Origin: a virus
DNA length: 59,236 nt
Reading direction: 5' to 3' (one strand)
IMG/VR virus record: IMGVR_UViG_3300025102_006169
Coordinates: 1-59,236 of that record
In this document: one piece after another, positions 36,226 to 58,557 of the stretch
How the letters are laid out: each line of letters opens with the position of its first letter
Numbering within the stretch: position 1 is the stretch's first letter
The notes under the pieces: generated by a model
The model's input: only the letters and a program-made list of their open reading frames with translations
What the model was told of the DNA's origin: nothing
Database searches by the model: none
Translations under genes and position numbers: made by a program

Positions 36226-36513
36226 TTAAGCCTCCTCCTGTTGCAGCATATCAAAAATGTCCGCTCGGTCCGTATCAGATAAGCCAGTGTCACCAGTTTG
36301 TTGTTTATGAATAAGGCCTGAGATCTTCACCAGCTGCTCGTTAGAGCGTTGCAGGGTCTCCACATACTTAGCCGCCACGGAGCCCACCTGCGTGTGTCTC
36401 TCCTCGTCTTTGGAAAGGTATCGCATCACATCGTCTAAGAGTTCTTTGGTGACCTCGCGGTCGTCTTGTATGTTTTTGATCGCTGTCTCAAGATAGTGAT
36501 CTAAATCTTTCAT
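36226..36513 (-). CDS. Small helical hypothetical protein
   Basis: A 95-residue, acidic, almost wholly helical protein without cysteine or membrane segment; the helices HYLETAIKNIQDDREVTKELLDDVMRYL and VAAKYVETLQRSNEQLVKIS are split here only by the charged linker KDEERHTQVG. Its ATG overlaps the stop of the sigma-factor gene (ATGA), so the two are translationally coupled, and its stop lies four bases before the DUF2272 gene. The coupling suggests, without proof, a partner of the sigma factor or a small assembly chaperone. I do not recognise its family. Confidence 0.6.
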   Translation of the reverse strand: MKDLDHYLETAIKNIQDDREVTKELLDDVMRYLSKDEERHTQVGSVAAKYVETLQRSNEQLVKISGLIHKQQTGDTGLSDTDRADIFDMLQQEEA

Positions 36514-37774: not shown

Positions 37775-37775
37775 C

Positions 37776-37976
37776 TCAATCCTCCTCAGAATCCTCAAAA
37801 TCTTCTTCTAATTTAACCAACGGAGGATTAATAACCACCAATCCAGTTTCAGAAAGACGAAATTTAAAACCTTTTAAAACTGGAACAATGTCGGATTGCT
37901 CTAGTAAAGATTTTTGTAGGGCCATCATTAAGGCTCCCATTGCTTGATCCGATAAAAGCATTTCTTGATTACTCAT
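37776..37976 (-). CDS. Small hypothetical protein
   Basis: A 66-residue protein from the ATG at 37976, which has AAGGAG six to seven bases upstream; a longer frame back to 38021 lacks a ribosome site and would overlap the UDP-glucose dehydrogenase gene by 53 bases. The sequence has a helix with methionines (LLSDQAMGALMMALQKSLLEQ), a short beta hairpin (GFKFRLSETGLVVINPP) and an acidic tail (EEDFEDSEED). Family not recognised. Confidence 0.6.
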   Translation of the reverse strand: MSNQEMLLSDQAMGALMMALQKSLLEQSDIVPVLKGFKFRLSETGLVVINPPLVKLEEDFEDSEED

Positions 37977-38811
37977 TTTTTTCTCCTTTTGTAACAGCTC
38001 CATCAATGTTGAGCCAATCATGTTCTTTACGAACTTCCATGTTTTTTTTCCATGATGCTTTTAACATAACAGGTTCTACGCCGTTTGTCAATGAATAAAA
38101 TGTTAAAGCATTCAAATCTTTTGGAAAACATTTTCCTCCAAAACCATTATGACCATCTGGGCCGGGAACTTGAAGGTGGCTTTTACCTATTCTTTCATCA
38201 TAGAGCGCCAACTTAACTACGTCGTTATAATCGGCTCCAGAAACATCACAAATTTGTCTCATCTCATTTGCAAAAGATACTTTTGTAGCCAAGAAAGTAT
38301 TGATAAAGTATTTTACGGTTTCAGCAGTTTTCCAATCAGTCGTAAAATAGTATTTATCTTCAAATACCGATTGAAGTAACCTAACACATTCCGCTGTGTC
38401 TTCTTTGTGGCCACCAAAAATCATACGATTACAGTTTCGAAAATCTTCAATGTGATTTGCTTCTGTAAGAAACTCCGGGCTAAAAACAATTCTTATGTTG
38501 GGGAACCTGTCTTTTATTTCTTCGCATGTGCCCGGAACCACTGTGGATTTTAAAATAATAATGTTGTCTTGATAGTTTTGATAAATTTGCCCCATTGCGT
38601 CAAAAATTATAGACAGATCACACTCACCATTATCATACATTGGGGTTGGCAACGCTACAAAAATTATCTCTGCCTCACCAACAACTTCTTTAATGCTATC
38701 CCTGTTTGAAAGGGCAGGTTTTCTGTCATAGATGACAAACTCATAATCATTTTTTAAATTTTCATAAATTGCGGAGCCTACAAAACCATTTCCAATAAGA
38801 CCTATCTTCAT
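37969..38811 (-). CDS. UDP-glucose 6-dehydrogenase-like protein, short form
   Basis: A 280-residue NAD-dependent sugar-nucleotide dehydrogenase, which makes UDP-glucuronic acid (or a related uronic acid) in two oxidation steps. Visible motifs: Rossmann GLIGNGFVGSAI at 4-15; LPTPMYDNGECDL; LKSTVVPGT; SPEFLTEANHIEDF; the helix AETVKYFINTFLATKVSFANEM; and the active-site segment VPGPDGHNGFGGKCFPKDL with the catalytic Cys. Bacterial Ugd is about 390-450 residues; this one stops shortly after the central domain and lacks most of the C-terminal UDP-binding domain. AAGGAGGAG precedes the ATG. It is the last sugar gene of the cassette and overlaps the epimerase. Its substrate could also be another NDP-hexose. 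Confidence 0.88.
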   Translation of the reverse strand: MKIGLIGNGFVGSAIYENLKNDYEFVIYDRKPALSNRDSIKEVVGEAEIIFVALPTPMYDNGECDLSIIFDAMGQIYQNYQDNIIILKSTVVPGTCEEIKDRFPNIRIVFSPEFLTEANHIEDFRNCNRMIFGGHKEDTAECVRLLQSVFEDKYYFTTDWKTAETVKYFINTFLATKVSFANEMRQICDVSGADYNDVVKLALYDERIGKSHLQVPGPDGHNGFGGKCFPKDLNALTFYSLTNGVEPVMLKASWKKNMEVRKEHDWLNIDGAVTKGEKNE

Positions 38812-39686
38812 GATAACTCCTCCTTAAGAAGCTTAAAGCAATCTCTAATACCTTGTTCAGCTTCGTGTTTTGGATTCCAGCCTAATAACTTGAGCGGTTC
38901 TATAAATGCCTTTGTTTCAAAAACATCGTTTTGTCGTGGGTCAACATAATCAAACACAACCTCTGGAAAGAACTCAAGTGCAATATCTTTAATTGCGTTC
39001 AAGGAAATGTTATCGCCAGTCCCAATGTCAAACCACTCTCCATTAAATTTACCTTCATAATTCATGCAAAAAATGTTAGCCGACACAACGTCTAGTTTAT
39101 GCGCCATGTCTCTTAGTTGTCCTCCGTCGCCCGTAATAAAAGGGTTCTTGTTGTCACGGATGTATTGCATCCAATTAGCCACTGCTGTGGCGTATGGGCC
39201 ATCTGCCTTTTGGTCCGGGGAGTACACATTAAAATAACGCAGACACACAGTGTCCAGCCCATAGAGCCTTGACCAGACTCCACACATGCTTTCAGGCATC
39301 AATTTAGATGCCCCATAGGGATTCTCTGGTCCTTCTCCGTTTCCTGTAACCGAAGAAGAGCTTGAATAAATAACTCGTTTAGCACCGACTGCTCTTGCAA
39401 ATTCCAACACATATAGCGAACTTAATACATTGTTCTCCAAAACATGAACTGGTTGTTCTATGCTATACACAACCCTTGGTATGGCCGCTAAATGAAAAAT
39501 GTATTCGGGCTTAAAATTAAACCAATGTGGGTGAAATTTTCCGTCACTATCTGGCTTTAAACACTCTAAGATGTCATGTCCGTCAACTAAATCAATGCCC
39601 AGAACATCATGACCAGCCTGCTTTAATTGCTTATAAACTTCAGACCCTATGTACCCCTTGTGGCCCGTGACTAAACATCTAGACAT
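38808..39686 (-). CDS. NAD-dependent sugar-nucleotide epimerase/dehydratase
   Basis: A 292-residue extended short-chain dehydrogenase. It has the NAD-binding start CLVTGHKGYIGSEVYKQL (G-x-x-G-x-x-G), HLAAIPRVVYS, the SSSSSVTG serine region and the catalytic Y-G-A-S-K. Further on are LRYFNVYSPDQ and the C-terminal LLGWNP typical of UDP-glucose 4-epimerase/UDP-glucuronate 4-epimerase relatives. It would interconvert or modify nucleotide sugars, possibly the product of the adjacent dehydrogenase. The start has GGAGGAGTAG upstream, and the gene overlaps its neighbours on both sides by a few bases. The exact substrate cannot be read from the sequence. Confidence 0.87.
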   Translation of the reverse strand: MSRCLVTGHKGYIGSEVYKQLKQAGHDVLGIDLVDGHDILECLKPDSDGKFHPHWFNFKPEYIFHLAAIPRVVYSIEQPVHVLENNVLSSLYVLEFARAVGAKRVIYSSSSSVTGNGEGPENPYGASKLMPESMCGVWSRLYGLDTVCLRYFNVYSPDQKADGPYATAVANWMQYIRDNKNPFITGDGGQLRDMAHKLDVVSANIFCMNYEGKFNGEWFDIGTGDNISLNAIKDIALEFFPEVVFDYVDPRQNDVFETKAFIEPLKLLGWNPKHEAEQGIRDCFKLLKEELS

Positions 39687-40509
39687 CTACTCCTCCAAAT
39701 TGTGGTGGCTTGTCCCAAAAAAGCTTTGCTTTTTCGTAATCATCATCCCTAAGTGTAATCTTGTCATTCAAAACATAATCTTCAAAATCTATGATTGGAT
39801 ACACATCAAGAACAGTTTTTTTACTAGCATTCCAAAACTTAACTGTGTCATCTTTTGCGAAAAAGTTTTTATGTGCTAAAGAATGTACGTTACGCATTTG
39901 GTTGTTGATTTTATACACCTTTTCGGGTGGGATGTCTGCTTGGTAAGAACTGTCAAAGTGGTTTGGATCATTCTTGGTGCCGCGATCACCAGTCCAGCCA
40001 AGGTCCGCGCCAACAATTATAATCTCGCTAAAACCCATGTAGTAAGCTAACTGAAGTGCTAAATTCATAGTGGTGCCTGACTTGTCAATCCTTTCAGATA
40101 CATCAGTAGAAAATGAATATTCTAAAATGTCACCGTTGGTGGCAGGTTTATTCTCAGACATTGAATTAAACCACTTAATTCTGGGGAAACCGAAACTAGG
40201 ATCTATCTGTGGTCGGAACATTTCGGCTATAAAAGATGTCGTTTCACGATGAGATACGGCCTCTCTTACAGATCTAGTCCAATCGGCACCCCATACAGGA
40301 TGTCGAACATTAGTAGAGGAAAACAAATAGTAAGTTGGCTTCCAATCCGGGTTCTCTGGGTAGATGAGCGAAATACGATTCATAGCGATAGTATATTCAT
40401 CTGCCAGTAAATCTAAATTTGTCTCTTTCAAGCTGGGGCCATTAGCCACCAAGAATACTCTTTCGCCTTTGTGTAAGTTTTTAAACTCTTTAAACACTTG
40501 GTTCATCAT
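39679..40509 (-). CDS. DUF115/MptE-like protein of polysaccharide clusters
   Basis: A 276-residue protein whose start, GERVFLVANGPSLKETNLDLL and the following YTIAMNRISLIYP, is the signature of the DUF115 (6-hydroxymethylpterin pyrophosphokinase MptE-like) superfamily. Later blocks SGTTMNLALQLAYYMGFSEIIIVGADLGW and HFDSSYQADIPPEK are also typical. In bacterial surface-glycan and flagellin-modification loci such proteins act as glycosyltransferase-like or sugar-phosphate transfer enzymes, for example the Maf family for nonulosonic acid transfer. AAGGAGTT precedes the ATG-ATG start. It overlaps the methyltransferase gene (ATGA). The exact transferase reaction is not known. Confidence 0.75.
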   Translation of the reverse strand: MMNQVFKEFKNLHKGERVFLVANGPSLKETNLDLLADEYTIAMNRISLIYPENPDWKPTYYLFSSTNVRHPVWGADWTRSVREAVSHRETTSFIAEMFRPQIDPSFGFPRIKWFNSMSENKPATNGDILEYSFSTDVSERIDKSGTTMNLALQLAYYMGFSEIIIVGADLGWTGDRGTKNDPNHFDSSYQADIPPEKVYKINNQMRNVHSLAHKNFFAKDDTVKFWNASKKTVLDVYPIIDFEDYVLNDKITLRDDDYEKAKLFWDKPPQFGGVDV

Positions 40510-41195
40510 AACTCCTTTTTTGAAAAAACCATTATGGTTCTTTTATAGTTTAGGTTGCTCATCTCATCATCAAAAATTTTGTGATTTGTAAAACCTCGGT
40601 CTGACATGTTTCTGATCATAAAATTTTGAGTTGGTGTGTAATGCAAAGCGTTATAAACATTAGATTTAGTTTTTCCGCCATGATAAACTACATCCTCCTC
40701 CTCACTATTAAGTGTTTTGAATTCTAATACTAACGTGTCCCCAATCTGTGCTAATTTATCTAGGCAAGCGGTTAAGTCTGGGACCCTATGTATGAGTCCC
40801 AATCCCAATACAATGTCATAATTCTCGTCCTCTGGACTATCGTACAAGTCTTGTACTCTAAACTCGACGTTATCCAGTCCGTATGCTTTTTTAGCCAAGT
40901 TTGATCGATCGATTCTTAAAGGATCTATGTCTGTTCCCAGAACATAATGCATGCCCAAATTAGCACTTTGAATTGCAAAAAAGCCGTCACTACAGCCTAT
41001 GTCCACCATGGTTTTCCCAATAGGCTGTAGCATTTCAATAATTGGTTTTAATCTTTTCCATTTATTTATGTTGTAGCCCGGACTACTAATGTGGCTTTCT
41101 CTTGTCTTTACATCACCGGGAAAAATGTAAAAATGATTCCACTCCTCCTTGAGTGACAGCTCTTGAACCTTTTCTTTAATCTCTTGCGGTGTCAT
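40506..41195 (-). CDS. Class I SAM-dependent methyltransferase (CmoB/DUF1698-like)
   Basis: A 229-residue methyltransferase. The N-terminal helix-strand (WNHFYIFPGDVKTRES, YNINKWKRLKPIIEML) is followed by the SAM motif VDIGCSDGFFAIQSA, acidic LGTDIDPLRI, VEFRVQDLYD and VLGLGLIHRVPDL. The arrangement recalls the CmoB/DUF1698 group, whose members also occur in glycan cassettes, so a sugar O-methyltransferase is likelier here than a tRNA enzyme. The start overlaps the preceding stop as TAATG and the end overlaps the DUF115 gene. The substrate is unknown. Confidence 0.8.
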   Translation of the reverse strand: MTPQEIKEKVQELSLKEEWNHFYIFPGDVKTRESHISSPGYNINKWKRLKPIIEMLQPIGKTMVDIGCSDGFFAIQSANLGMHYVLGTDIDPLRIDRSNLAKKAYGLDNVEFRVQDLYDSPEDENYDIVLGLGLIHRVPDLTACLDKLAQIGDTLVLEFKTLNSEEEDVVYHGGKTKSNVYNALHYTPTQNFMIRNMSDRGFTNHKIFDDEMSNLNYKRTIMVFSKKEL

Positions 41196-41881: not shown

Positions 41882-41894
41882 AAACCTTTCCCTT

Positions 41895-42971
41895 TTAAGT
41901 AAATAAGTTTTTTAAATTACCATTTCTTTCTATTGAGATGCTGGAGCAGGATGGGTATGGGTTTGTGCTGGCAAAATCATTAACAATTATTCTTTTTCCA
42001 TGATTGCAGCCAGATATTATGGTTTTGTATCGTATCTCATTCTCTTTCAGAAATGTCTTAAAGAATTCTAGATACTCATCTGTTCTACTTGTCATAAAAA
42101 TTATTTCGCTACCTTGGTCCGATAATTTTTTTACCAAATCAAAGTTTTCCTTGATCGGCTCAAATGTATTTGACCAATTTTTAGATCCATATTTACCATA
42201 ATTGATAAGCATAACCCCATCGATGTCAAAAATGTAAGTATTAAACCTGTCTCTTTCCTCTTGCCACTCTTTCAAGGTTCCCCAATCAACATAGTTTTTT
42301 GCATCCACAAATTGAAATGCTACTTTCCTGTTTATAAGCAAGTGTGAAATGATGTGACTAACATACAATTCTTTGTTATCAAGCAACACACCAGAATCCA
42401 CAATCTCGTTATAGGATTCAATAAACTGTTCAACCGTGAGGCAGTATACACCCAAACAGATGTTATCGGAAACAATGCTCTTTTCAACAATGTCTTGAAT
42501 TAGGTTATCATCATTTTTTACAATAAAGCTTTTATTCTGTATCTTTTTAACTGTTGATCGTTCGTCAATCCTCATTCCAACAACAAAGTTCTTATCAATG
42601 ATCGATTCTGTGGCCACTAAGCAATCAGTGTCTTTGATTATTATCCGACCTTTAAGGTTTGCAGCTTCTATTGCTCTTAGCACAGTCTCTGGACAAGAAC
42701 TAGTTTCCTGCTCCAAAATGATTACACTCACACTATTTCCAAACGCTTGCTCCAAAACCAAATCAGCTTCAAATTTGTCACAATGCTCTCTAAGAGTCAC
42801 AACATAAGTGTTTTTGTATTTATCATACTCAAATTCTTTCAGCACCTTTTCAATCATCATGTTGCCATCTGGATGTGTGAGCATCCATTTTGGTCGCATA
42901 CCGGGGAACCTAGAAGACTTACCAGCAGCGGGGACGATCAGTGTTATGTCTTTCCTGTTATCGAATGGCAT
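41895..42971 (-). CDS. Sugar (or alcohol) phosphate nucleotidyltransferase fused to HAD phosphatase
   Basis: A 358-residue two-domain protein. Residues about 8-235 are an NTP-transferase: LIVPAAGKSSRFPGMRPKWML (the signature loop and K28) and IIKDTDCLV with the metal-binding acid. Residues about 246-345 are a HAD-type domain: YIFDIDGVM with D249/D251 and FMTSRTDE; the loop III acid may be in VNDFAST. One chain could thus activate a sugar (or polyol/choline-type) phosphate with CTP/UTP/GTP and remove or control a phosphate. It overlaps the APH-like kinase gene by 14 bases, suggesting kinase-then-nucleotidyltransfer steps in the same pathway. The nucleotide used is not known. Confidence 0.8.
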   Translation of the reverse strand: MPFDNRKDITLIVPAAGKSSRFPGMRPKWMLTHPDGNMMIEKVLKEFEYDKYKNTYVVTLREHCDKFEADLVLEQAFGNSVSVIILEQETSSCPETVLRAIEAANLKGRIIIKDTDCLVATESIIDKNFVVGMRIDERSTVKKIQNKSFIVKNDDNLIQDIVEKSIVSDNICLGVYCLTVEQFIESYNEIVDSGVLLDNKELYVSHIISHLLINRKVAFQFVDAKNYVDWGTLKEWQEERDRFNTYIFDIDGVMLINYGKYGSKNWSNTFEPIKENFDLVKKLSDQGSEIIFMTSRTDEYLEFFKTFLKENEIRYKTIISGCNHGKRIIVNDFASTNPYPSCSSISIERNGNLKNLFT

Positions 42972-43761
42972 GTTCTAGACTCCCTTCTAGGTGTGCTAAG
43001 GTGCGTTTATCTTTACAGTATGGGATTACTCTAAGGATGTTTAAAACAATTAAGCAGTCAATTGATTTTTTGTTGTCTTTATAGATTTGTGTATTTTTAA
43101 GGATTTCATCAACATAAATGCTTTTAACAATTGGTTTTTGTTTTATAAACCTGCTTGACCAAAAGTATCTTACGTCAAACAGCAGTTTTGCTACGTCAAT
43201 CAATTTTGTATCAATAAAAGAATCTAAAAAATCTATAAAATGCAGCTTTCCATTTGAAACAATTAAATTCTCAAATGTTAAATCACCGTGACACTCGCTT
43301 GTTGGTATGTGCTGCCAGTTATTTTGCAACACATGTTCATAAAACTTTTCATATCCAGTTGTCTTTGTTCTAATGTTTTTAATTTTTTCCTGTATAAATT
43401 TCGATAAATCCTGTGTTTGTTGTATTTTATCACAGGACAAGTAGTCTTGCAGAGCTTTAATAAATGGTGCCACTGTGCTAATGTCGGAGCTTCTGATGTG
43501 GTCACTTAGTGATTTACCATTGATGTAGTTCATGTCAAAATAAAATAAATCGTTAACATGACCTCTTCTTAGAATTTTTGGACTTTCTATAATTGATAAT
43601 TTGCTGGTAAATTTTTCTTGTTTTTGTGATTGGTTTAACAATCTTTCATTATAAGAAACATCTGGAGAAATCTTCCTGACGTATTTTTCTTGTGAGTTAC
43701 TGTCGTTCGCACACAGCAGAATTTTGCACCCAGAATGACCAGACAGTTTTTTAATTATCAT
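42958..43761 (-). CDS. APH/choline-kinase-like phosphotransferase
   Basis: A 267-residue protein with the aminoglycoside-phosphotransferase/choline-kinase fold. The catalytic segment is CHGDLTFENLIV (H158-G-D160 and N165), followed by LHFIDFLDSF with the metal-binding D177. The N-lobe is short, with MNYINGKSLSDHI at the hinge. In envelope-glycan loci such kinases phosphorylate sugars, choline or similar small alcohols; drug resistance is unlikely in this context. ATG at 43761 overlaps the glycosyltransferase stop (ATGA), and its end overlaps the nucleotidyltransferase-HAD fusion, which would use its phosphorylated product. The substrate is inferred, not seen. Confidence 0.75.
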   Translation of the reverse strand: MIIKKLSGHSGCKILLCANDSNSQEKYVRKISPDVSYNERLLNQSQKQEKFTSKLSIIESPKILRRGHVNDLFYFDMNYINGKSLSDHIRSSDISTVAPFIKALQDYLSCDKIQQTQDLSKFIQEKIKNIRTKTTGYEKFYEHVLQNNWQHIPTSECHGDLTFENLIVSNGKLHFIDFLDSFIDTKLIDVAKLLFDVRYFWSSRFIKQKPIVKSIYVDEILKNTQIYKDNKKSIDCLIVLNILRVIPYCKDKRTLAHLEGSLEHAIR

Positions 43762-44687
43762 TTCCCGACTGGTCGATTGTATGACATATAGTTTAAAGCG
43801 TTCAGGTCTAAATCCTTTTCAAAATAAATGTATTTTATAGCATTTTTAATTTTTGATTTTTTCAAGTCAGGTGGATTATCAACAATTTCTTTTGTCCAAT
43901 TTTTGATCCAACCCATTTTTTCTCTGGTGTGTGTCGGATTTGAATGTGGCCAAGTTCCTTCCCACTTGTTATAAAAATAATTCCAAGCTGAGAGTTTGTA
44001 AATACCCCCTCTGCTATTATTCCAGATTTGTTGCTGCTCAGAATCGTCTGGCTTTCTTTTTATAATTTCTTTACCTGCATCATTAACCGTAACAAAGTTT
44101 CTATCATCGAATGATTCTATAGGGTAATCAGGCTCGTGATTCAAAAGTATTCCATGAACAATGTCATTAATTGATGTCTTGTCTTTGTTGTAGATTAGTG
44201 CTCTTAAAAAATAATCTGTCTCTTTGTATTGAGCAGGCAAGTTTTCGTCCCACATTCCAATTTTTCTAATTGATTCGGGTTTATAGGCTGTTATTGTATC
44301 TCCGCAGAGGCCTGTCACAAAGGTATAGCCCTTTTGATTGAACAATACATCCAAATGTTCACACCACTTCGGATGAACAACGGCGTCGTTCTGTAGTGTA
44401 ACAAGTATCTCAGTATCTGGTTTTTGTAGATTTACTACGCCATTAATGAATGCTTGATTATAATTTTCTGATACATTTCCATTTGACCAATCGGGTCTTA
44501 GTACATTATGTAACACATTCACTTTATTTTTAAATTCGTCTCGCAGATAAAATTCGGAGTGATTGTTAATTACGTTAACCTCTGTATTTTTCAACTCTGA
44601 GAAGTCTGATTTAAACAGTTTATCAAGCGTATCATTGAGCACATCACATCTTTTATATGTAACAATGTAAACCTTCATTTTTTTCAT
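43758..44687 (-). CDS. GT2-like glycosyltransferase (GT-A fold)
   Basis: About 309 residues from the ATG at 44687, which overlaps the preceding stop as ATGA; the longer frame to 44720 would run 37 bases into that gene. KVYIVTYKRCDVLNDTLDKLF is the usual start of GT-A transferases. VNVINNHSEF and LVTLQNDAVVHPKWCE carry the strand and acidic N-D replacing a D-x-D motif. Later KIGMWDENLPAQYKETDYFLRAL resembles the E-T/D-D acceptor helix of GT2 enzymes. It would add a sugar to the growing glycan. The C-terminal 100 residues (WNYFYNKWEGTWP and a basic helix) are unrecognised. Sugar and linkage are unknown. Confidence 0.75.
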   Translation of the reverse strand: MKKMKVYIVTYKRCDVLNDTLDKLFKSDFSELKNTEVNVINNHSEFYLRDEFKNKVNVLHNVLRPDWSNGNVSENYNQAFINGVVNLQKPDTEILVTLQNDAVVHPKWCEHLDVLFNQKGYTFVTGLCGDTITAYKPESIRKIGMWDENLPAQYKETDYFLRALIYNKDKTSINDIVHGILLNHEPDYPIESFDDRNFVTVNDAGKEIIKRKPDDSEQQQIWNNSRGGIYKLSAWNYFYNKWEGTWPHSNPTHTREKMGWIKNWTKEIVDNPPDLKKSKIKNAIKYIYFEKDLDLNALNYMSYNRPVGK

Positions 44688-45652
44688 AACAGATCTACCC
44701 GTTCTAGACAGTCTGTCCAACTGTTAAACTTGATAGATTTATCATCAATGTAAGCAACTGCGCGTGGTTTTTCAGCCGTTACTTTACTAATAAACTGAGA
44801 TAAGTTGTTACTCTCAAGCCATTCCCAAACAAGTTGAGTACCAGTCTTTCCGTTAACTAGCCCTCTATCTGCTCTAGCCTTGCATGTGTAAACTATAACT
44901 GTATACTTCTCTGACAGAGATTGTAAAGCTTCGTATGAACCTTCAACTGGCTCGTCGTAGATCGTGCCATCGTAATATCCCTTGGAACACCTGTGTATTA
45001 CTCCATCAAAATCAACTCCAATGTTAATTTGCTCATCTGGGTAGCTATGTTTTCTTACCTTGCCACCTTTCCAGTTTAGTTTTTCGAGTTCCTCTGGCGA
45101 GTTTTTCCCGATAGGAGGGCACACGTTCCCAGATGCATGAGTCAGTTGATACGTTAATAAAAGAGTGAGTACTTCAGACGTATGATAATAATCTGCCCCT
45201 AAGACAACTTGAGTAAGATTGTTAACACTTTCTGTGATGGGCACTGAGGTTATCATAGCCACCTCCATGCCATGATCAGTGCCCCATTGTAAGGCCTTAA
45301 TTATGTCGCGCGACTTACCAGAAGAGGAGATGCCAAGCACGAGTGACTTCTTCATTTGTGTTTTGGTTCTAGCAGATGTACGGCTAGAGAGCCAGCTAAC
45401 CATCCATTGATCGAAGCCGACATCATTAATCAGAGAAGTTGCTACAACGCCGCTACCGGGACACATTGCGTTCTTATTACCATTTGATAACCTAGTGATG
45501 TCTACTGCTGCATGGTCTGCAACCGCAAGGTTACCACCGTGTCCAAGCACATAAATTTCATTACATCGGTTAAATTTCTCTTGAAGTTCTTTCCAAGAAC
45601 TTGAATTTACTGTCTTTACAAACTTTTCGTCTAAATTTTCAAAATTAAGCAT
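44684..45652 (-). CDS. SIS sugar-phosphate isomerase fused to HAD phosphatase-like domain
   Basis: A 322-residue fusion. Residues about 25-180 are a SIS domain of the GmhA/KdsD type: YVLGHGGNLAVADHAAVDI, LINDVGFDQWMVSWL and the phosphate loop LGISSSGKSRDIIKAL. Residues about 208-320 are a HAD-like domain: IGVDFDGVIH (D214/D216), VIVYTCKARAD and VAYIDDKSIKF. Phosphoheptose isomerase (GmhA) and heptose bisphosphate phosphatase (GmhB) are normally separate proteins; fusing an isomerase with a phosphatase hints at a heptose or arabinose-5-phosphate/Kdo-type precursor. Its ATG overlaps the aldolase stop and its stop overlaps the next glycosyltransferase. The two active sites appear intact, but the substrate is an inference. 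Confidence 0.8.
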   Translation of the reverse strand: MLNFENLDEKFVKTVNSSSWKELQEKFNRCNEIYVLGHGGNLAVADHAAVDITRLSNGNKNAMCPGSGVVATSLINDVGFDQWMVSWLSSRTSARTKTQMKKSLVLGISSSGKSRDIIKALQWGTDHGMEVAMITSVPITESVNNLTQVVLGADYYHTSEVLTLLLTYQLTHASGNVCPPIGKNSPEELEKLNWKGGKVRKHSYPDEQINIGVDFDGVIHRCSKGYYDGTIYDEPVEGSYEALQSLSEKYTVIVYTCKARADRGLVNGKTGTQLVWEWLESNNLSQFISKVTAEKPRAVAYIDDKSIKFNSWTDCLERVDLL

Positions 45653-48322: not shown

Positions 48323-49066
48323 TTAATACTCCATGAAGTTTTGCTTGCAAATTTTTAAAGCTTCGTCTAAGCTTTCTATCTCATAAGTTCCCTGATTGAT
48401 TCTAGTGTCTGCGTGCATGTGATAAATTCTAGGCGCTAAATGTTCTTCGCCGAATTCATGATGAAACTTTCTCTGTTTTTCCCTGTTAGCTTTGCTACGA
48501 ATGTTGTATTCAACAGGAAAAACATAAAATTTCAAGCCACCCTGAATAGCTTGCCAGAGGGAGAATCTAAATGAGGCTTGATCCCAAGGGCAGTAATTGT
48601 AATACCGATAAAAGTTTTTTCTCCACTCTTTCCAAAGATTCATAACCTTTTCGCCACTGTTGAATACTAAAACACCAGTGTTAATCTCAGAAAAAGCATA
48701 CGGTATGTCTCTATACTCGGGCATAACATTTGAGTACTTAATTCTTTTTCTGGCTAGATCGTGTGTGCCAGCAAGATCAAAATTATCTAATAAGTCATAC
48801 ATGTCTTCTATGTTTCTGTCGATTATTGTGTCTGTATCTAGAAACAAAGTCTGTTCGTATGGTGTTTGATCAATGTAATCAATCTTTGGTCTTAAATGCT
48901 TGGCATTAATAATTTTAACCTCGTCAACAAATGGGGAGTCCACTTCCTGATCAATAAACGCTGTTATGTGTAGATTTGGATTGTGTTTTTTGACTGATTC
49001 AGCTGAGATCAGCATCTCCTTGACGAAGTTTTCTCCAAAAGCTATGTAAATGACACCCCTATTCAT
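48323..49066 (-). CDS. GT8-like glycosyltransferase (GT-A, D-x-D motif)
   Basis: A 247-residue GT-A-type transferase. GVIYIAFGENFVKEMLISAESVKKHN begins the nucleotide-binding fold; TLFLDTDTII is the D-x-D metal/nucleotide motif at 73-81; FSEINTGVLVFN and CPWDQASF resemble the acceptor-side blocks of GT8 and related nucleotide-diphospho-sugar transferases. The C-terminal half ends with HMHADTRINQGTYEI. No membrane anchor. It is placed between a GT-B transferase and the DUF579 gene, touching both (TAA-ATG at the latter). The sugar transferred is unknown. Confidence 0.75.
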   Translation of the reverse strand: MNRGVIYIAFGENFVKEMLISAESVKKHNPNLHITAFIDQEVDSPFVDEVKIINAKHLRPKIDYIDQTPYEQTLFLDTDTIIDRNIEDMYDLLDNFDLAGTHDLARKRIKYSNVMPEYRDIPYAFSEINTGVLVFNSGEKVMNLWKEWRKNFYRYYNYCPWDQASFRFSLWQAIQGGLKFYVFPVEYNIRSKANREKQRKFHHEFGEEHLAPRIYHMHADTRINQGTYEIESLDEALKICKQNFMEY

Positions 49067-49067
49067 G

Positions 49068-50051
49068 TTAAATCTCCTCTATTCTATCGTATAAATGTTT
49101 GGCCCAGTTAAGTGGATTATATAATCTATCAAATTCTTTCTTGGCGTTGTCAGCAGTTTGCTGCCTTTTTTCTGCGTCTCTTAAACAACTTAACGCTTTA
49201 TACCAGCTGTTAGTATTTTGTGCTACAAACCCACATTCGGGCGATCCAAGGATGTGTAAATTGCTTGGCGTTAAGTCTCCAACCACTGGTATACCGAGTT
49301 GGTGAAACACAAAGTTTCTTCCCGCATTTGACTTATTCTTAAAGCGAGTTACATAATCAGTATTATACCTACCCAGATCAACAGATGTTCCCTGCTTATC
49401 ATCGCAAGGATCAATGTTGGTTACATTTGGCACTACCCCTATGTCACAACTAAGCAAATCGTCTCTAACCGTATTAAAGTTCCACTGTTTTATTATTATG
49501 TTTTTGATTTTAGGCTTACCAGTTTTCCATTTAAAATGTTGATTAGAAGTTATAACAAAGAGTTCTAAATCAATCTCTTTGTCGAGCGTCTCTAAAGATT
49601 GTTTCAAACCGTAATCAAATTTGCCCAAGTGAGTGTGACTACCGTGAAACCCTATTCTTAACACATCTTTGTCTTTGTGTTTCTTATAGTGATCACATGA
49701 CTGATACATGTTTTCTATAAGCGGAAACAAAAATACATTCTTGTGGTGTGATAAGCTTATCTGCTCCTCTATAGATCCTACGATTACAAAATCAGGCCTT
49801 ACTTTTGAGTCTGCTGACAGGTTAATGACTCCGACTTTTCGATTCTCGTTCATAATTGCTTCGGCTATAGACGCGTCTGCTTTTGAACAGATTATTATTT
49901 CAGAGCCACTACCATAAGCCACTGTAGGAGAATTTGTTATTTTACAAGAAACCCCACATGATTTTAAATATTGGCTAAGATCATTAACCCAAATCCTATA
50001 CGATCCGACATTTATAGATCTGTCAGTTGCTAAAAAAGTAATTGTTTTCAC
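49068..50051 (-). CDS. GT-B (GT4-like) glycosyltransferase, GTG start
   Basis: A 327-residue GT-B-fold transferase. The start codon is GTG at 50051, overlapping the preceding stop (TAGTG). The N-terminal domain begins TITFLATDRSINVGSYRIWVNDL. The C-terminal domain has LRIGFHGSHTHLGKFDYG (the sugar-nucleotide loop), IIIKQWNFNTVRDDLLSCDIGVVPN, then KSNAGRNFVFHQLGIPVVGDLTPS, the equivalent of the GT4 E-x7-E/G-x-P block. It differs from the classical consensus, so the family assignment beyond GT-B is uncertain. Expected cytoplasmic role: adding a sugar to the lipid-linked glycan. Confidence 0.7.
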   Translation of the reverse strand: MKTITFLATDRSINVGSYRIWVNDLSQYLKSCGVSCKITNSPTVAYGSGSEIIICSKADASIAEAIMNENRKVGVINLSADSKVRPDFVIVGSIEEQISLSHHKNVFLFPLIENMYQSCDHYKKHKDKDVLRIGFHGSHTHLGKFDYGLKQSLETLDKEIDLELFVITSNQHFKWKTGKPKIKNIIIKQWNFNTVRDDLLSCDIGVVPNVTNIDPCDDKQGTSVDLGRYNTDYVTRFKNKSNAGRNFVFHQLGIPVVGDLTPSNLHILGSPECGFVAQNTNSWYKALSCLRDAEKRQQTADNAKKEFDRLYNPLNWAKHLYDRIEEI

Positions 50052-50740
50052 TAAATCTTGCCAAACACTACAACTTGATGGTTTGGGTTTCCGCTTGCTG
50101 CGTCCCCAACACGGTAGACCATAAAATTACCAACAGACTTACAAACCTCTTTTATGTCCTCATAACAGCCAAATCTAACATCGAAATCATCAAAGATCCA
50201 AATTGGATTTTCAGATTGTAGGTGCTTAACATTGGCAATGTCTCGTAAAACTGCTCCTCTTTGGTGAGATGCATCAATGTAAAAGAGATCGATCTTTTCT
50301 TTTATCTGTTGCCCTAATTCTTTGCTTGTACCTAAGCAAAACGTAGTGTTCTGGGCGTATGTGTCAGCATACTTCTTGTTTCTCTTGTCTAGAATGTCAC
50401 AACTCCAGACATGTCCCTCGGGACCAATCTGTTCAGCAAAAGAGTAAAACTGTAATCCCTCTGCTGTACCAACCTCTAAGATGTTTTTGACACCAAAGTT
50501 TTTAGCAATTTGAGATAGGTAGTAAGGCCTTTTAATCAGTTGAGACAAACATCTTTTGGTTTCCTGATCAGATAAACCATGAGTGTTCGCTTTATTAAGT
50601 TGCACCAAAAAGCTTATGTCCTTCCAAATTTTCTTGTATTTATCAGGAACTAAAATGTCTTCAAACCGACCACATTTCTCTATGAGCCTTTGGTTAGCAT
50701 CTGAATTTTTTATGTATTCTTTGTATTCTGGCCAAATCAT
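50051..50740 (-). CDS. Class I SAM-dependent methyltransferase (Methyltransf_24-like)
   Basis: A 229-residue protein. The SAM loop is NILEVGTAEGLQFYSFAEQIGPEGHVWSCDI; the next acidic motif is DLFYIDASHQRGAVLRDI, and IWIFDDFDVRFG closes the sheet. The pattern is that of Methyltransf_24/cephalosporin-hydroxylase-like O-methyltransferases common in glycan loci. The N-terminal 75 residues are helical and unrecognised. It overlaps the FkbM-like gene (ATGA) upstream and the GT-B gene (TAGTG) downstream. Sugar O-methylation is likely, target unknown. Confidence 0.78.
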   Translation of the reverse strand: MIWPEYKEYIKNSDANQRLIEKCGRFEDILVPDKYKKIWKDISFLVQLNKANTHGLSDQETKRCLSQLIKRPYYLSQIAKNFGVKNILEVGTAEGLQFYSFAEQIGPEGHVWSCDILDKRNKKYADTYAQNTTFCLGTSKELGQQIKEKIDLFYIDASHQRGAVLRDIANVKHLQSENPIWIFDDFDVRFGCYEDIKEVCKSVGNFMVYRVGDAASGNPNHQVVVFGKI

Positions 50741-51351
50741 TTTAAATCTATTAACTCTTTTATCTTTTGTAGCATGTCTACGTTTTTTTCTGGCTTATGT
50801 TCGCTGAACCGGTGTAGCACTATGTTATTAGACTCTAGGAGATCATAATATTCTTGGACTCTGGTATTAAGCTCTGCCACCTTTTCTACATCGTGGCCTT
50901 GTCCGCAAAACAGGTCAATCTTGTTGTGTATGTTATTATCCACTATGTCCTGAAAAAATGGCAGTTCTGCGCCTTCAATGTTTATCTTTAGTATGTTAAT
51001 GTCTTCTTCGGAGTAATCAACACTTTCATTAAACCAATCAGAAAATTTTATACCTTCAACCTCTTCGTAATCTTTCCCAACATTATTCTTAGTGGAGTAG
51101 ATTGAGTGCCCAACACCATTTTTTGAATAATAAAGCTTAATACTTTTATTATCATCAGAAATAGCTTTGTTAATTATCGAAACCTTAGAATTAAAATTGT
51201 AAGTTTCCGACAACCATTTTGAGTACTGTTGACAAGCCTCAAATCCGTATACTTTATAATCTTCAATTCCAAGTTGTGGCATAATGTGGTTTACAACCCA
51301 GTGTATTTCTATACCCCTACAGGCACCGAGATCAAAATAATTAATTCTCAT
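50737..51351 (-). CDS. FkbM-family methyltransferase
   Basis: A 204-residue protein of the FkbM type. INYFDLGACRGIEIHWVV is a divergent SAM loop; YGFEACQQYSKWL carries the acidic ribose-binding residue; VSIINKAISDD and GVGHSIYSTKNN are the family's conserved middle; INILKINIEGAELPFFQDIV, with the conserved I-E-G-A-E, is the clearest hallmark. FkbM enzymes O-methylate sugars or acyl groups in surface polysaccharides. It overlaps the flanking GT4-like and methyltransferase genes. The modified position is unknown. Confidence 0.82.
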   Translation of the reverse strand: MRINYFDLGACRGIEIHWVVNHIMPQLGIEDYKVYGFEACQQYSKWLSETYNFNSKVSIINKAISDDNKSIKLYYSKNGVGHSIYSTKNNVGKDYEEVEGIKFSDWFNESVDYSEEDINILKINIEGAELPFFQDIVDNNIHNKIDLFCGQGHDVEKVAELNTRVQEYYDLLESNNIVLHRFSEHKPEKNVDMLQKIKELIDLK

Positions 51352-52240
51352 TTGATTGTCTCATAAAATCAATGTACTTGTTGGCAACTACTTTCATATT
51401 ATAATCGGTGCTTATGTTGTTGTCAACTACTTTATCAAAGTTTATTTGAGGAGGATTGTACAAATCAACCGGAGACATGTCCCAATTGTCCTCTTCAATA
51501 ATCAACGCGTTAGTGCCAGCGATCTCTCTAGTGCCACCAGCGGTGGAGCACACGATCTTGCACCCAGAGGCTCTAGCATCCACCACAACGTTAGGGCAGT
51601 GATCAAGCCATGCAAGATGCAGAAAATACTTTGAACGCTTGTACAGAGCTATCAGAGCCTCATGTGGCAAATCTCCAACAAAGAAAATTCTATCATGAGC
51701 TTTTGGATAATCGGTTTTGCCGGCAACTACCAGACACTCTCTATTACTTGAATGTTCTAGGAAGTACCTAATGTTATCTTTTAATCTTTTGTGGGGTCTC
51801 CAATTAGATGCACAAGACCACACTGATTCATAGCCATCAAGAACAGAGTTATTAAGCACTTTGGTACTGTTTATCTTCTCCAGATCTGCACCATTGTGAA
51901 TAACAATTGAATTTGGATGGGATCCAAAGTATTTTGTGGTTAACTTTTTGTTGAACTCTGATTGAAATATGACGCCGTTGGAAATTTCATAGGTTCTTTT
52001 GATGTTCCTATTTTGAAGATTATAATCAAATTTTGTATTAAAATAGATACCATCTAGTCTCTGGAACATTGGGCAATCGAAATTTTCTCTGCTTGATTCT
52101 ATAAAACACAAATGTGCGTTCGGTGCTTGTTTTAAATCAAAAGAGCAGCCGGCTTTGCTAGCATACTTTGTCAACTTTTTTGCAAATGAGTTTGGGCCTG
52201 TACTGCTATTTAGATTTACATTTTCTAGATGAATGTTCAA
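51341..52240 (-). CDS. GT4 glycosyltransferase (TTG start)
   Basis: A 299-residue GT-B transferase. The start is a TTG at 52240, which overlaps the preceding TGA (TTGA); no ATG lies near the conserved start NIHLENVNLNSSTGPNSFAKKL. The second domain shows VWSCASNWRPHKRLKDNIRYF, FFVGDLPHEALIALYKRSKYFLH and DHCPNVVVDARASGCKIVCS, the GT4 donor-binding block. Retaining GT4 enzymes use NDP-sugars to extend the glycan. It is one of five GT-B-type genes in this cassette. Confidence 0.83.
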   Translation of the reverse strand: MNIHLENVNLNSSTGPNSFAKKLTKYASKAGCSFDLKQAPNAHLCFIESSRENFDCPMFQRLDGIYFNTKFDYNLQNRNIKRTYEISNGVIFQSEFNKKLTTKYFGSHPNSIVIHNGADLEKINSTKVLNNSVLDGYESVWSCASNWRPHKRLKDNIRYFLEHSSNRECLVVAGKTDYPKAHDRIFFVGDLPHEALIALYKRSKYFLHLAWLDHCPNVVVDARASGCKIVCSTAGGTREIAGTNALIIEEDNWDMSPVDLYNPPQINFDKVVDNNISTDYNMKVVANKYIDFMRQSNEN

Positions 52241-53838
52241 GACAGTCTCTCGTAAGATTTCTGTTGTCTAATTTTATTTGCTGTCTCAACTTGTTGTTTG
52301 GTATAAACTTTGTCAACGTTTAAGGGATTAACCTTATTATAAACGTGCAGAATTTCTGGAACATAGTGACACTTTGGTCCCGACATTTCCAGCAACGGTA
52401 ACATAATTGCCTGATCATAAGCGACTTTATAATAATCACCGTCTGTGTCTTTCAGGTCATCGTGTTCTATTTTATCCCAAACCTTTTTCCTAAATGTTCG
52501 AAGGTGTGAAGCTCGCCACACATCTTTACGATATGCATTATTATCAACAACCGCTTCAGGGTACTCAGATGGCTCTGGACCTCGGACTCCGTAGGGGTAT
52601 AGAACATAGCTGCCGTATGTCATCCAACAATCTTTTTCATTATAAAATTTATTGAGATGTGATAGTACAAGATTACTTGAGAACCAATCATCTCCATCCA
52701 AGAGAATAACAACATCTTCAGGGTCACAATTTAATGATTCTACTGTCGATGCAATGTTTCCCAAGGCAAATCTTTTTTGATCATTTTTTATAACTTTAAA
52801 TCTAGGATCATCTATTGTTAATTCTTTTGCAACTCTAAACGAATCGTCGTTGGACATGTCATCTATTAGAACACACTCAAAATTAGTATAGCTTTGATCT
52901 TTTATTGAACTTATGCATTTTGGCAAAAAACTTTCTGCATTATAGAAAGGTGTCACAATAAAATACTTTGGACCCACTAAACTACCTTCTTTTGGCATAA
53001 AATCCAAATGCTTATTTATTTCATCCCAGAAAACTTTAGTTCTTGTTTTAAGATATTGTAAACAGGACTCTTTAGTCTGGAACCACTTTTCATCTTTGTG
53101 TTGAACATTATCATTTAATTTAAGATCGCAGTCCAGTAGTTTTGCCTCTATTACCATTCTTGGACATGTATCGCCTGCTTTGGGGAAAAAAATCAACCCT
53201 TTCGATGAAGCAAGCTTCTTCAATAATTCTTTGTGCTCTAGGCCCCATACTAATTCATAATCAAGATTATTTTGTTTTGCGTACTCAACAGCCTCTTTAA
53301 CACCTTTAATCCAAGATTGAGAATTTAGAATTATCCACTTATCATTCTTCTGGGTTGTATCCAATGATTCCAGATAGTCCAAAGTTTCACCTGAAAACAC
53401 AGAACTAAGCACCTGTCCCTGTAAGAAAGCAAAAGCAGAAATCTGCTTTTGTTTTTGTTGCTCAGACATCCACCAGTTTATTTTAGACTTTGCCAAAAAC
53501 AAAGCGACTACCTTTCCACCCTTGCTTGTGTGACAATCACACTCTCCCTCAGAGACTATGTGTTTGCCGGGTGAGCGGTACTTACAAAATTTGTAATCAT
53601 ACTCAAGAACTGAGTAATTTAAATTCTTGGCCGCGTACATCATACACTCTTCGGAAAGATTAGCAAAATTGCCAAAAATCCAAAAAGAGTGTTTAAATTT
53701 TTCCATAATTTGCGGATTTAATTGACTTGTTATAGCTTTCCCAGTGGGCATTAATGTAGATCTTATTAATGCCTCTGTCGTGAGTTCGGCCCCGCCAACA
53801 TAATGTTCAACAAATGCATCCGCAGCAAATAGAATCAT
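52237..53838 (-). CDS. Fusion of a GT-B-like domain and a GT2 glycosyltransferase
   Basis: A 533-residue two-domain protein. Residues 1-285 look like a reduced GT-B transferase: FVEHYVGGAELTTEAL, WIILNSQSWIKGVKEAV, LVWGLEHKELLKKLASSKGLIFFP and DTCPRMVIEAKLLDC. Residues about 290-520 are a standard GT2 GT-A domain: YFIVTPFYNAESFLPKCISSI, CVLIDDMSNDDS and VILLDGDDWF with its D-x-D. The N-terminal part lacks part of the usual acceptor domain and may be regulatory or a second active site. The fused protein could add two sugars in turn. It overlaps neighbours by one and four bases (TAATG upstream, TTGA downstream). Confidence 0.8.
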   Translation of the reverse strand: MILFAADAFVEHYVGGAELTTEALIRSTLMPTGKAITSQLNPQIMEKFKHSFWIFGNFANLSEECMMYAAKNLNYSVLEYDYKFCKYRSPGKHIVSEGECDCHTSKGGKVVALFLAKSKINWWMSEQQKQKQISAFAFLQGQVLSSVFSGETLDYLESLDTTQKNDKWIILNSQSWIKGVKEAVEYAKQNNLDYELVWGLEHKELLKKLASSKGLIFFPKAGDTCPRMVIEAKLLDCDLKLNDNVQHKDEKWFQTKESCLQYLKTRTKVFWDEINKHLDFMPKEGSLVGPKYFIVTPFYNAESFLPKCISSIKDQSYTNFECVLIDDMSNDDSFRVAKELTIDDPRFKVIKNDQKRFALGNIASTVESLNCDPEDVVILLDGDDWFSSNLVLSHLNKFYNEKDCWMTYGSYVLYPYGVRGPEPSEYPEAVVDNNAYRKDVWRASHLRTFRKKVWDKIEHDDLKDTDGDYYKVAYDQAIMLPLLEMSGPKCHYVPEILHVYNKVNPLNVDKVYTKQQVETANKIRQQKSYERLS

Positions 53839-55112
53839 TATGTTCCTGCCAACAACTCATCAAACAAGGAGTCAACTTCCTCTTCAGTAATCTCTTTTGG
53901 AAGTATTGAATCACATAAACTGCTGTAAATTTTATCCTTATTAAATTCTTTTCTAACCCAAGACTTCAAATAACTTGCTCTTTCAAGCCATTTGTCATAT
54001 TCTTTTCTTACTTGTCGAAGTCTTAACTTGTAAGACCCTTCTGATGGATAGCACCACATAGTGTCTTTTTCAATAACACCCGGCCAAACTGAGCCTTCAG
54101 AAACAGGGCCCAAGGTAAAGTCTACTTTAGCAAAAAATGGCTTTAGAACATTTTTCTTTTTCTTGTTTTTTGTTCGAGAAGGGGCAAACAAAAAATCACA
54201 TTGCCCAGACCATCCGGGTGCAATGATTGGAAGTCCACTATAAGCTGCCTCAAATAGCGGTAAACCGAAGCCTTCTCCATGAGTCAAAGAAACTAAGCAT
54301 TTTATCTTATCATGATTGTATACAGCGTGCATTTCTTGTTCTGTTAGATCACCGTGTAAGAGATAAATTTTGCATTTTCTATCTTTAGGGGAATCAGATA
54401 AAACGTCATGAATTAACTGGGCAGCATAACTTCTGTCAACAATTGAATTATTTTTAATACTGGTTTTAACTACTAACCCAACTTCTTGATCATAGTTTTC
54501 TTCAACAAACCACTTTATAATTTTTGATAAGTTCTTTCTTGGACCCCACTGAGCGACGGCCAAATAATTAAAATCGTGTTCTAATTCCAATTCGATCTGA
54601 CTTTCCTCATAGTCTTTTACAGGATATCCAACGACATCCACCTCAGTTTGCATTTTTAAACTCATGGGCTGTCCGGTTTCTTTATTGTGACCTTGAAAAA
54701 CAGCGTTCATAAATCCATCTTTAGAATGCTTTGAAATAGTTATTACCTTATTCATGTAATTAGATTTTTCTACCCAGACCGGGGATACTCTATTAGACTC
54801 GATCCCTGCTGTAACACCAATGTTAATTGGTGCCATTCTATCCCATTCATTTGGTATTGTAACTTGAACTGAAATGTCGAACTGTCTTTTTGCTTCTAAG
54901 AACTCATTAGTTGCAATAACTCGCTTATCAATCCATTTTCTTTCCTCATTCATTTCGCAAAGCCAGCCGGTTTCACCCCAGCCGGTTGGAATAATAAAAA
55001 TGTCTACGTCTGATTCGCGAGTCCTAAGTGCTCTCAGCACCAAGCGAGCGTGTTCACCATAACCAGATTGTGATAATACAGGCCCTCGAACTACAACTGA
55101 TTTTTTCATGTT
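53838..55112 (-). CDS. GT4 glycosyltransferase
   Basis: About 424 residues from the ATG at 55112, with GGAG upstream; the longer frame to 55130 would run 25 bases into the preceding gene. It begins SVVVRGPVLSQSGYGEHARLVLRAL. NYLAVAQWGPRKNLSKIIKWF is the phosphate-binding loop, and CLVSLTHGEGFGLPLFEAAYSGLPIIAPGW is the GT4 E-G-F-G-L-P-x-x-E-A block. Several charged repeats (NKKKKN) precede the C-terminal helix. It is probably a mannosyl- or similar transferase, though specificity cannot be read. It ends on the TAATG overlap with the fusion gene. Confidence 0.85.
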   Translation of the reverse strand, partial: NMKKSVVVRGPVLSQSGYGEHARLVLRALRTRESDVDIFIIPTGWGETGWLCEMNEERKWIDKRVIATNEFLEAKRQFDISVQVTIPNEWDRMAPINIGVTAGIESNRVSPVWVEKSNYMNKVITISKHSKDGFMNAVFQGHNKETGQPMSLKMQTEVDVVGYPVKDYEESQIELELEHDFNYLAVAQWGPRKNLSKIIKWFVEENYDQEVGLVVKTSIKNNSIVDRSYAAQLIHDVLSDSPKDRKCKIYLLHGDLTEQEMHAVYNHDKIKCLVSLTHGEGFGLPLFEAAYSGLPIIAPGWSGQCDFLFAPSRTKNKKKKNVLKPFFAKVDFTLGPVSEGSVWPGVIEKDTMWCYPSEGSYKLRLRQVRKEYDKWLERASYLKSWVRKEFNKDKIYSSLCDSILPKEITEEEVDSLFDELLAGT

Positions 55113-56374
55113 ATACTCTCCATAGACCACGCCTTGTAGCCAGTTCTATTTTCCCAACATCCAAATTTTTCACAAGTTTGATCGATTATCTCAATCCATC
55201 TATTTTTTAACTCTTCAAAATTGTAATTATCTTCAACGTGTTTCATACCCATTTTACCAAGCTCGGTGCGCTCCTCTTGAGACATGCCATAAATCTTGTG
55301 CAGGGCCGAATTAAAATCTTTTTCGGAAATCCTATCTTCATGAATATATGGTACATTTTGTGATCCGATAAGTACTTTTGAAGCGGGTTCAATACCAACA
55401 CCAAACCAGTTTTTACCGTCTGTAACCTGCTCTTGTAAACCACCAGTCATAGTAACAATAATAGGCGTGCCACAAGATAATGATTCCAAGGTAGCCAAAC
55501 CAAAGCCTTCCGCATCTGAGATGTTAATGGTGCAATCGGCCATGTTATACATCAGTGATAAACCCTCGGGTGGCATTTTTTGACTAGAAAACATAACGCG
55601 GCCATCTGTAATTTGTTTATCTATTAAAATTGCATTTAGGTCTTGCCCTTGAGGATCTTTTGGATCTGTATGCATAATCAAGCAAACATTTTCTGGGCCT
55701 ACTTCTTCTGCAAAATTGTTGAACCACTCAATTAATGTTCCGCTCTGTTTTCTTCTAGCATTTCTATTATTCCAGAAAAATACAAATCGATCATCATGAT
55801 TAGGAAATTGATTGTCCTTAAATTCTTCTACATGTTCGTCAGATAATCTTTTGAACACATTTGGGTCTACCGCATGAGGCAGGTAATGATTCTCCACATC
55901 TGGCGATACATTATTAACAATGTCATGTGTTACCTTAGAGATTGATGCAATAACATCGTTTGAATCGTACCACTTTTTATTAAATAATGGGAATGGGTAA
56001 TTGTCCCATACATGGTAATATACCATTGGTACAACAGATCGCACTTCATTTTCAATTTGCCAAAGCCATTCAAAATACCTTGGATCAGTCATAAACCAAA
56101 CCAAGCTTGGCTTTTGAGTCCAAATAATTGACCTGATCGTTTCTTGGTTGCCGTAACCATCCACTGGGTATACCATCCAATCGCCGTCGTCCCAACGTTC
56201 GTCCGTGATAGTTTGTGGGTCATAATTAGGGTGTTTCATAGCTCCCCCAAGACAAATAAATTTATATCTACCTGTCATGATCATGGTTTCAATAAAAACT
56301 CTGGTTTGGTGTGCCACGCCAGAGGGTGCCATAGGGTGATCCGATAAAACAAGGATCGTCTTTTTTTCGCTCAT
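55106..56374 (-). CDS. GT4 glycosyltransferase
   Basis: A 422-residue GT-B transferase and the first gene of the glycan cassette. It starts TILVLSDHPMAPSGVAHQTRVFIETM; the second domain has FVFFWNNRNARRKQSGTLIEWF, MYNMADCTINISDAEGFGLATLESLSCGTPIIV and a Q-E-Q-V-T end, the GT4 donor block. No signal or membrane segment, so it works in the cytoplasm. ATG at 56374, seven bases after the nuclease stop at 56382, so it is in the same transcript as the nuclease and its upstream genes. Its substrate is unknown. Confidence 0.85.
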   Translation of the reverse strand: MSEKKTILVLSDHPMAPSGVAHQTRVFIETMIMTGRYKFICLGGAMKHPNYDPQTITDERWDDGDWMVYPVDGYGNQETIRSIIWTQKPSLVWFMTDPRYFEWLWQIENEVRSVVPMVYYHVWDNYPFPLFNKKWYDSNDVIASISKVTHDIVNNVSPDVENHYLPHAVDPNVFKRLSDEHVEEFKDNQFPNHDDRFVFFWNNRNARRKQSGTLIEWFNNFAEEVGPENVCLIMHTDPKDPQGQDLNAILIDKQITDGRVMFSSQKMPPEGLSLMYNMADCTINISDAEGFGLATLESLSCGTPIIVTMTGGLQEQVTDGKNWFGVGIEPASKVLIGSQNVPYIHEDRISEKDFNSALHKIYGMSQEERTELGKMGMKHVEDNYNFEELKNRWIEIIDQTCEKFGCWENRTGYKAWSMESIT

Positions 56375-58528: not shown

Positions 58529-58557
58529 ATTATAACCACATTTATGTTCTATGTCAA
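58529..58557 (-). promoter_or_regulatory. Consensus sigma70 promoter for the nuclease/glycan operon
   Basis: The minus strand reads TTGACA (58557-58552), 17 bases, then TATAAT (58534-58529), a perfect sigma70 promoter at ideal spacing. A start site near 58522 would leave a leader of about 16 bases with AAAGGAGC in it. It occupies the only sizeable gap at the right end, between phoH and the 106-residue gene. Confidence 0.9.

Follow-up and report, generated by a model that had tools for sequence, protein, structure and literature searches.

A phage glycan locus with a constant glycosyltransferase pair and an exchanged cassette: one allele of a possible virion-glycan pathway

The window analysed here is a 59,236-base linear virus record of IMG/VR (IMGVR_UViG_3300025102_006169), a partial genome of a large phage that carries T4-type baseplate wedge genes, a gp55-like late sigma gene and a PhoH gene. 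Its glycan locus, at 37969-56374, consists of exactly 21 open reading frames (ORFs) on the minus strand, mostly overlapping and with intergenic gaps of -68 to +13 bp, and is bounded by an exonuclease gene and by small genes preceding the late sigma gene (Table 1). Pfam and NCBIfam searches place 19 of the 21 ORFs in sugar metabolism, transfer or methylation, some of them weakly; the ORFs at 41195 and 49068 have no match in these searches. G+C content, about 0.40-0.45 across much of the structural genes, falls to 0.34-0.40 in the locus. A perfect TTGACA-17-TATAAT site lies upstream of the exonuclease/glycan unit on the same strand, and the same promoter-like site is found about 1.4 kb upstream of the exonuclease gene in the near relatives L084-L087, L097, L098 and L110. 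An earlier note on this DNA had described 21 consecutive overlapping genes, comprising glycosyltransferases (GTs), methyltransferases, sugar-nucleotide enzymes and fusion proteins, with an early-type sigma70 promoter on one side and the late sigma factor on the other. The count, the placement and the late sigma assignment (PHROG 234) all hold, and family and PDB matches agree with the gene classes, the nucleotidyltransferase/HAD fusion being weakly matched.

All 21 ORFs are intact. L126, the sole relative sharing most of the window's gene set, carries it in identical order at 42-87% amino acid (aa) identity, with synonymous sites saturated, which points to purifying selection. Pseudogenisation, which the earlier note had named as grounds for giving up its interpretation, is thus ruled out together with chance ORFs, by the intact frames, the purifying selection and the collinearity of L126.

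The exonuclease-sigma interval was compared between the window and 19 other records. All 20 intervals have the order exonuclease, GT4a, GT4b, variable region and sigma, where GT4a and GT4b are the first two genes of the locus, and two small ORFs before sigma are kept in most of them. The middle region, from herein the cassette, ranges from 9.3 to 26.7 kb, and its 371 proteins fall into 173 families, 118 of which are confined to one locus. The cytidylyltransferase family of CMP-sugar synthetases is present in 10 of the 20 loci; genes of other alleles include NeuB, DegT, GMD, PFK, a sulfotransferase and a C-methyltransferase. GT4a immediately follows the exonuclease gene in 37 of the 40 loci with room for it, and GT4b is next in 35. 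The late sigma query has at least 597 relatives in IMG/VR, and two of 80 late-sigma loci (L043 and L065) are without a cassette, GT4b being followed by one ORF of 65-68 aa and then by flank genes. No more than 10 of 50,697 phage records contain a match to GT4a. The GT4 pair is accompanied by a cassette in two cultured phages, Flavobacterium phage immuto (Immutovirus) and Microcystis phage Mel-JY01; a third, Rhodothermus phage RM378, shows GT4a next to a weak GT4b-like gene and no cassette.

Whole alleles, the GT4 pair included, are swapped between phages with near-identical flanks. Between the window and its relatives G002 and G003, the exonuclease is 97-98% identical (synonymous divergence, dS, 0.38-0.41) and the late sigma 96-98% (dS 0.76-0.80), against 68-70% for GT4a and 62-63% for GT4b, with dS of 2.2 or saturated, and most of the middle has no DNA similarity. 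The breakpoints lie near gene borders, similarity resuming at 37989, 38819 or 39691 depending on the relative. The pair G033 and G034 shows the same pattern (dS 0.20 for the exonuclease, 2.2 for GT4a), and G004 and G005 have a common GT4a allele (99% aa) followed by different genes. An assembly chimera is unlikely as the origin of the swap, since G001, a second assembly of G002, agrees with it and the same exchange is seen in three pairs that are independent of one another. A single recent insertion of a bacterial island is ruled out, as 20 relatives have the interval and its alleles are swapped. The interpretation in the earlier note is supported in part: the pathway and placement agree with it, while the allelic swapping and the constancy of the first two genes had been missed.

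Table 1. Predicted features of the glycan locus and its flanks, with positions in the window.
Feature	Position	Strand	Evidence
Perfect sigma70-type promoter-like site	58529..58557	-	12/12 match
PD-(D/E)XK exonuclease, conserved left flank	56382..57146	-	97-98% aa in G002/G003
GT4a, invariant GT-B glycosyltransferase, locus gene 1	55106..56374	-	PF00534 3.2e-14
GT4b, second invariant GT4 glycosyltransferase	53838..55130	-	family match and relatives
GT2 glycosyltransferase, 533 aa	52237..53838	-	PF00535 8.7e-21
Third GT4 glycosyltransferase	51341..52240	-	family match
FkbM-type methyltransferase	50737..51351	-	family match
Methyltransf_24 methyltransferase	50051..50740	-	family match
Protein without family, 327 aa	49068..50051	-	51% aa in L126; model pLDDT 45, unreliable
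GT77/GT8-type glycosyltransferase	48323..49066	-	PF03407 4.4e-6
DUF579/GXM-type methyltransferase (glucuronoxylan 4-O-methyltransferase family)	47735..48322	-	PF21729 5.8e-31
GT29 (sialyltransferase-family) glycosyltransferase	46956..47738	-	PF00777 7.9e-10; profile vs ST3Gal1 4e-7
CMP-sugar synthetase, NeuA/PseF-like	46322..47023	-	family/profile match
HpcH/HpaI aldolase, closest to YfaU 2-keto-3-deoxy-sugar aldolase	45645..46325	-	family/profile match
GmhA-like SIS isomerase + HAD phosphatase fusion	44684..45652	-	family/profile match
GT2-like glycosyltransferase, weak	43758..44720	-	PF00535 0.0024
APH-type small-molecule kinase	42958..43761	-	PF01636 3.6e-7
Nucleotidyltransferase/HAD phosphatase fusion	41895..42971	-	both matches weak
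Protein without family, 228 aa	41195..41881	-	model pLDDT 36, unreliable
Methyltransferase, Methyltransf_9/31	40506..41195	-	family match
DUF115/MptE-like protein	39679..40509	-	weak WaaZ-like match
NAD-dependent sugar epimerase/dehydratase family (GalE-type)	38808..39686	-	family match
Short UDP-glucose 6-dehydrogenase, C-terminal domain missing	37969..38811	-	active-site GGKCFPKD present
Two small conserved ORFs, right flank	37198-37527, 37520-37798	-	shared with relatives
T4-gp55-like late sigma, conserved right flank	36510..37214	-	PHROG 234; 96-98% aa in G002/G003

In GT4a, both glutamates of the E-x7-E motif (E289 and E297) are invariant in 22 sequences. GT29 matches at sialylmotif L, the rest of the protein (S, III and VS region) being without confident alignment. 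Profile comparison of the family-less protein at 49068 with GT4a gave a probability of 15%. No PDB relative was found by sequence for the DUF115 protein, nor for GT4b as a single sequence, and a scan of genome contigs gave no bacterial source of the SIS-HAD fusion. The nucleotide-sugar dehydrogenase is about 280 aa long, and its homologues in several relatives are similarly short (about 276-307 aa). The product of 37198-37527, encoded just ahead of the late sigma gene in almost every relative, has one strong N-terminal hydrophobic segment. Further perfect TTGACA-17-TATAAT sites lie at 51398-51426, within the third GT4 gene, and, starting at 1291, on the minus strand; each is possibly an internal promoter.

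The gene content suggests two acidic sugars. The short UDP-glucose dehydrogenase, the epimerase and the DUF579/GXM-type methyltransferase suggest glucuronate, possibly 4-O-methylated, and the YfaU-like aldolase, the NeuA/PseF-like synthetase and GT29 suggest a CMP-activated ulosonic acid, for which the GmhA-like SIS/HAD fusion could supply the aldose. The APH kinase and the NTP-transferase/HAD protein could activate another sugar, and heptose-type activation by these two and the SIS/HAD fusion was considered as an alternative beside the ulosonate route. The nearly complete acidic-glycan pathway claimed in the earlier note thus appears largely self-sufficient, with a predicted UDP-glucuronate route and a predicted route to a CMP-activated 2-keto-3-deoxy acid.

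Export machinery is missing from this pathway. Not one of 516 proteins of at least 100 aa from the intervals (a set that includes the window and G001) has three or more hydrophobic segments, while the same count gives nine for E. coli Wzx and six for Wzy. The initiating phosphoglycosyltransferase family PF02397 (Bac_transf) was found in 0 of 23 records (9 of 14 controls matched), and the Wzx family PF01943 was absent from the 23 records, its controls matching. A Wzx/Wzy-type capsule locus is therefore ruled out by the absence of polytopic proteins, PF02397 and PF01943. The thymidylate-synthase/hydroxymethylase family PF00303 is absent from the window, 22 relatives, Mel-JY01, RM378 and both cassette-less records. 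Immuto, alone among the phages tested, has a gene of the thymidylate-synthase family (NC_055915, 26905-28149, a 423-aa open frame). A search for TET/JBP dioxygenases gave no match, and its controls likewise gave none. Given the lack of export genes and of the hydroxymethylase family, neither a classic capsule locus nor classic glucosylation of hydroxymethylated bases fits. The constant GT4 pair, the exchanged cassette and the absence of export genes are well supported.

We favour the interpretation that the locus is one allele of a serotype-like, membrane-free glycan pathway whose acceptor is most likely a virion protein, with a probability of roughly one half. The GT4 pair is kept across unlike hosts, even without a cassette, and the best explanation for this is an acceptor brought by the phage. 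Virion decoration, one of the purposes offered in the earlier note, gains from the constancy of the pair, from its retention where the cassette is absent and from the likeness of GT4a to a chlorovirus enzyme (best PDB match in a profile search: B736L of chlorovirus NY-2A, full length, 4.7e-18); the acceptor is predicted. The enzymes would act in the host cytosol before virion assembly. GT4a and GT4b would add the first sugars to the phage-supplied acceptor, most likely at Ser/Thr of a virion protein, after which the cassette would synthesise and add further sugars, here glucuronate, possibly 4-O-methylated; GT29 would transfer the CMP-activated 2-keto-3-deoxy acid onto the glycan, and the cassette methyltransferases would methylate the added sugars. 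Such a phage-specific coat could alter recognition, adsorption or particle protection, and a swap of the locus would change the “serotype” while leaving the capsid unchanged. A wider proposal, that the virions of abundant aquatic T4-like phages are coated by glycans started by the GT4 pair, with the coat type switched by recombination of the whole locus from exonuclease to sigma, is put forward tentatively, at a little under even odds.

Several points weigh against virion decoration. The glycan, the glycoprotein and the acceptor site are predicted here from genes alone, all marine records are genome fragments, the role of B736L is itself inferred rather than proven (PMC4691112), and the GT4b-like neighbour of GT4a in RM378 is a weak match (2.8e-9). 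Even without Wzx, GTs in the cytosol could lengthen lipid A-core or glycolipids of the host. The sole Ser/Thr-rich segment exceeding shuffled sequences is the tail of a 1266-aa protein (7106-10906), the conservation of which among relatives is partial and patchy, and the family of this protein was not detected in immuto, Mel-JY01 or RM378; as a candidate acceptor, the tail is a lead only.

The C-terminal tail of this 1266-aa protein is rich in Ser, Thr and Arg and ends in GGGGY, and several relatives have a similar low-complexity tail with a terminal Tyr. Two larger proteins of the window, one of 3399 aa with a weak laminin-G lectin-like match (12055-22254) and one of 2613 aa with a peptidoglycan-binding domain (26043-33884), are probably fibre- or tail-associated.

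The strongest competitor, which we regard as possible but rather unlikely, is modification of the host surface, where the cytosolic enzymes would alter lipid A-core, glycolipids or other envelope acceptors, leading to superinfection exclusion of rival phages or preventing progeny from re-adsorbing to debris. In its gene content and in the variability of its alleles the cassette is similar to O-antigen loci, its placement behind a sigma70-type promoter is early/middle, and the GTs of the hypervariable host-recognition cluster of pelagimyophages, which lies with tail fibres, have been read in the same way (PMC7029224). However, no allele encodes a member of the Wzx or PHPT families or a polytopic protein, the cassette can be absent, and the constant GT4a is common to phages of Flavobacterium, Microcystis and Rhodothermus, the envelopes of which differ. 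With a host acceptor, the first GTs would be expected to be the variable ones, contrary to the constancy of GT4a. Completion of a host capsule or lipopolysaccharide (LPS) chain, another purpose suggested in the earlier note, is likewise weakened by the lack of these families and of polytopic proteins in 20 alleles.

Glycosylation of host proteins, or the production of free nucleotide sugars or oligosaccharides for signalling, metabolic diversion or decoy, would suit the soluble enzymes and the nearly complete nucleotide-sugar branches, but leaves unexplained both the retention of the pair after cassette loss and the allelic exchange, and we consider it improbable. Less probable still is DNA hypermodification, with GT4a and GT4b glycosylating a modified base and the cassette extending the sugar to shield the DNA from nucleases. 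DNA-glycosylating GTs are well known from phages, the GT genes adjoin a DNA exonuclease gene, and immuto has its thymidylate-synthase-family gene. Against this stand the distribution of PF00303 given above and the 9-27 kb of mostly unshared sugar genes, which far exceed the needs of known base modifications. The concern in the earlier note that the homologues might act on nucleic acids is thus eased in part, as no hydroxymethylase of the thymidylate-synthase type was found.

The favoured virion-glycan pathway has its closest parallels in the chloroviruses PBCV-1 and NY-2A, where sugar synthesis, GTs and methyltransferases are encoded by the virus and independent of host organelles. Chlorovirus glycans consist of a constant core with variable decoration and are made outside the ER/Golgi (PMC7826918), and the window likewise combines conserved core GTs with variable extension genes and membrane-free GTs. 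The difference is that chloroviruses are eukaryotic algal viruses with a proven N-glycan on their major capsid protein, Vp54, whereas the locus here is a single compact, swapped one of a bacteriophage, with a predicted acceptor. Phage GTs also glycosylate virion proteins in mycobacteriophages, at sites close to the C-termini of the capsid and tail-tube proteins (Freeman et al. 2023, as described in PMC12619734); that virion glycosylation was chemically shown, unlike that of the large biosynthetic cassette here, and the two are likened by description only. The core genes of the large aquatic “moraphages” include several for glycosyltransferases, the role of which is undecided (PMC12619734).

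Cyanophage P-SSM2 carries LPS genes, and bacterial O-antigen and capsule loci are exchanged by recombination in their flanks. Allelic sugar genes between conserved flanks are found here also, but the window's lineage is without an initiating transferase, flippase or polymerase. The pelagimyophage/cyanomyophage cluster is similarly marine, T4-like, hypervariable and rich in GTs and sugar-nucleotide enzymes, but is located between VrlC and gp14 with tail fibres, whereas the locus here lies between exonuclease and late sigma with the constant GT4 pair first, and no fibre genes were recognised in this interval of the window. Immuto, Mel-JY01 and RM378 share the GT4a-GT4b core near an exonuclease-type gene, its second member being only weakly matched in RM378, but GT4a identity is about 31-32%, the other cassette genes differ and, in immuto, the late sigma gene is not adjacent, unlike in the window. 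Annotations at their GT loci give nothing beyond glycosyltransferase. No prior description of the exonuclease-GT4a-GT4b-sigma locus was found in the open papers searched, which is no proof of its absence. The late sigma gene occurs in two phage contigs of this lineage that were binned into metagenome-assembled genomes, L182 (JABHTA010000206.1, Flavobacteriales) and L183 (JAUVQD010000088.1, Actinomycetes), a hint too weak to name a host.

The sugar genes found in marine phages are commonly classed with auxiliary metabolic genes or with LPS genes. Here, the constant initiating pair, the cassette-less alleles, the lack of export machinery and the allele swapping together point to an acceptor owned by the phage, so that comparative anatomy offers a testable answer on the purpose of large phage sugar cassettes, and cultured members exist. 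The cassettes also contain uncharacterised sugar enzymes, such as the GT29, the DUF579 protein and those of an aldolase-based ulosonate branch. If the virion-glycan reading is true, these phages would vary their virion glycan much as bacteria vary surface antigens or switch O-antigens, and their virions would be polymorphic in the manner of antigens, which would bear on adsorption, on host range and on the survival of particles.

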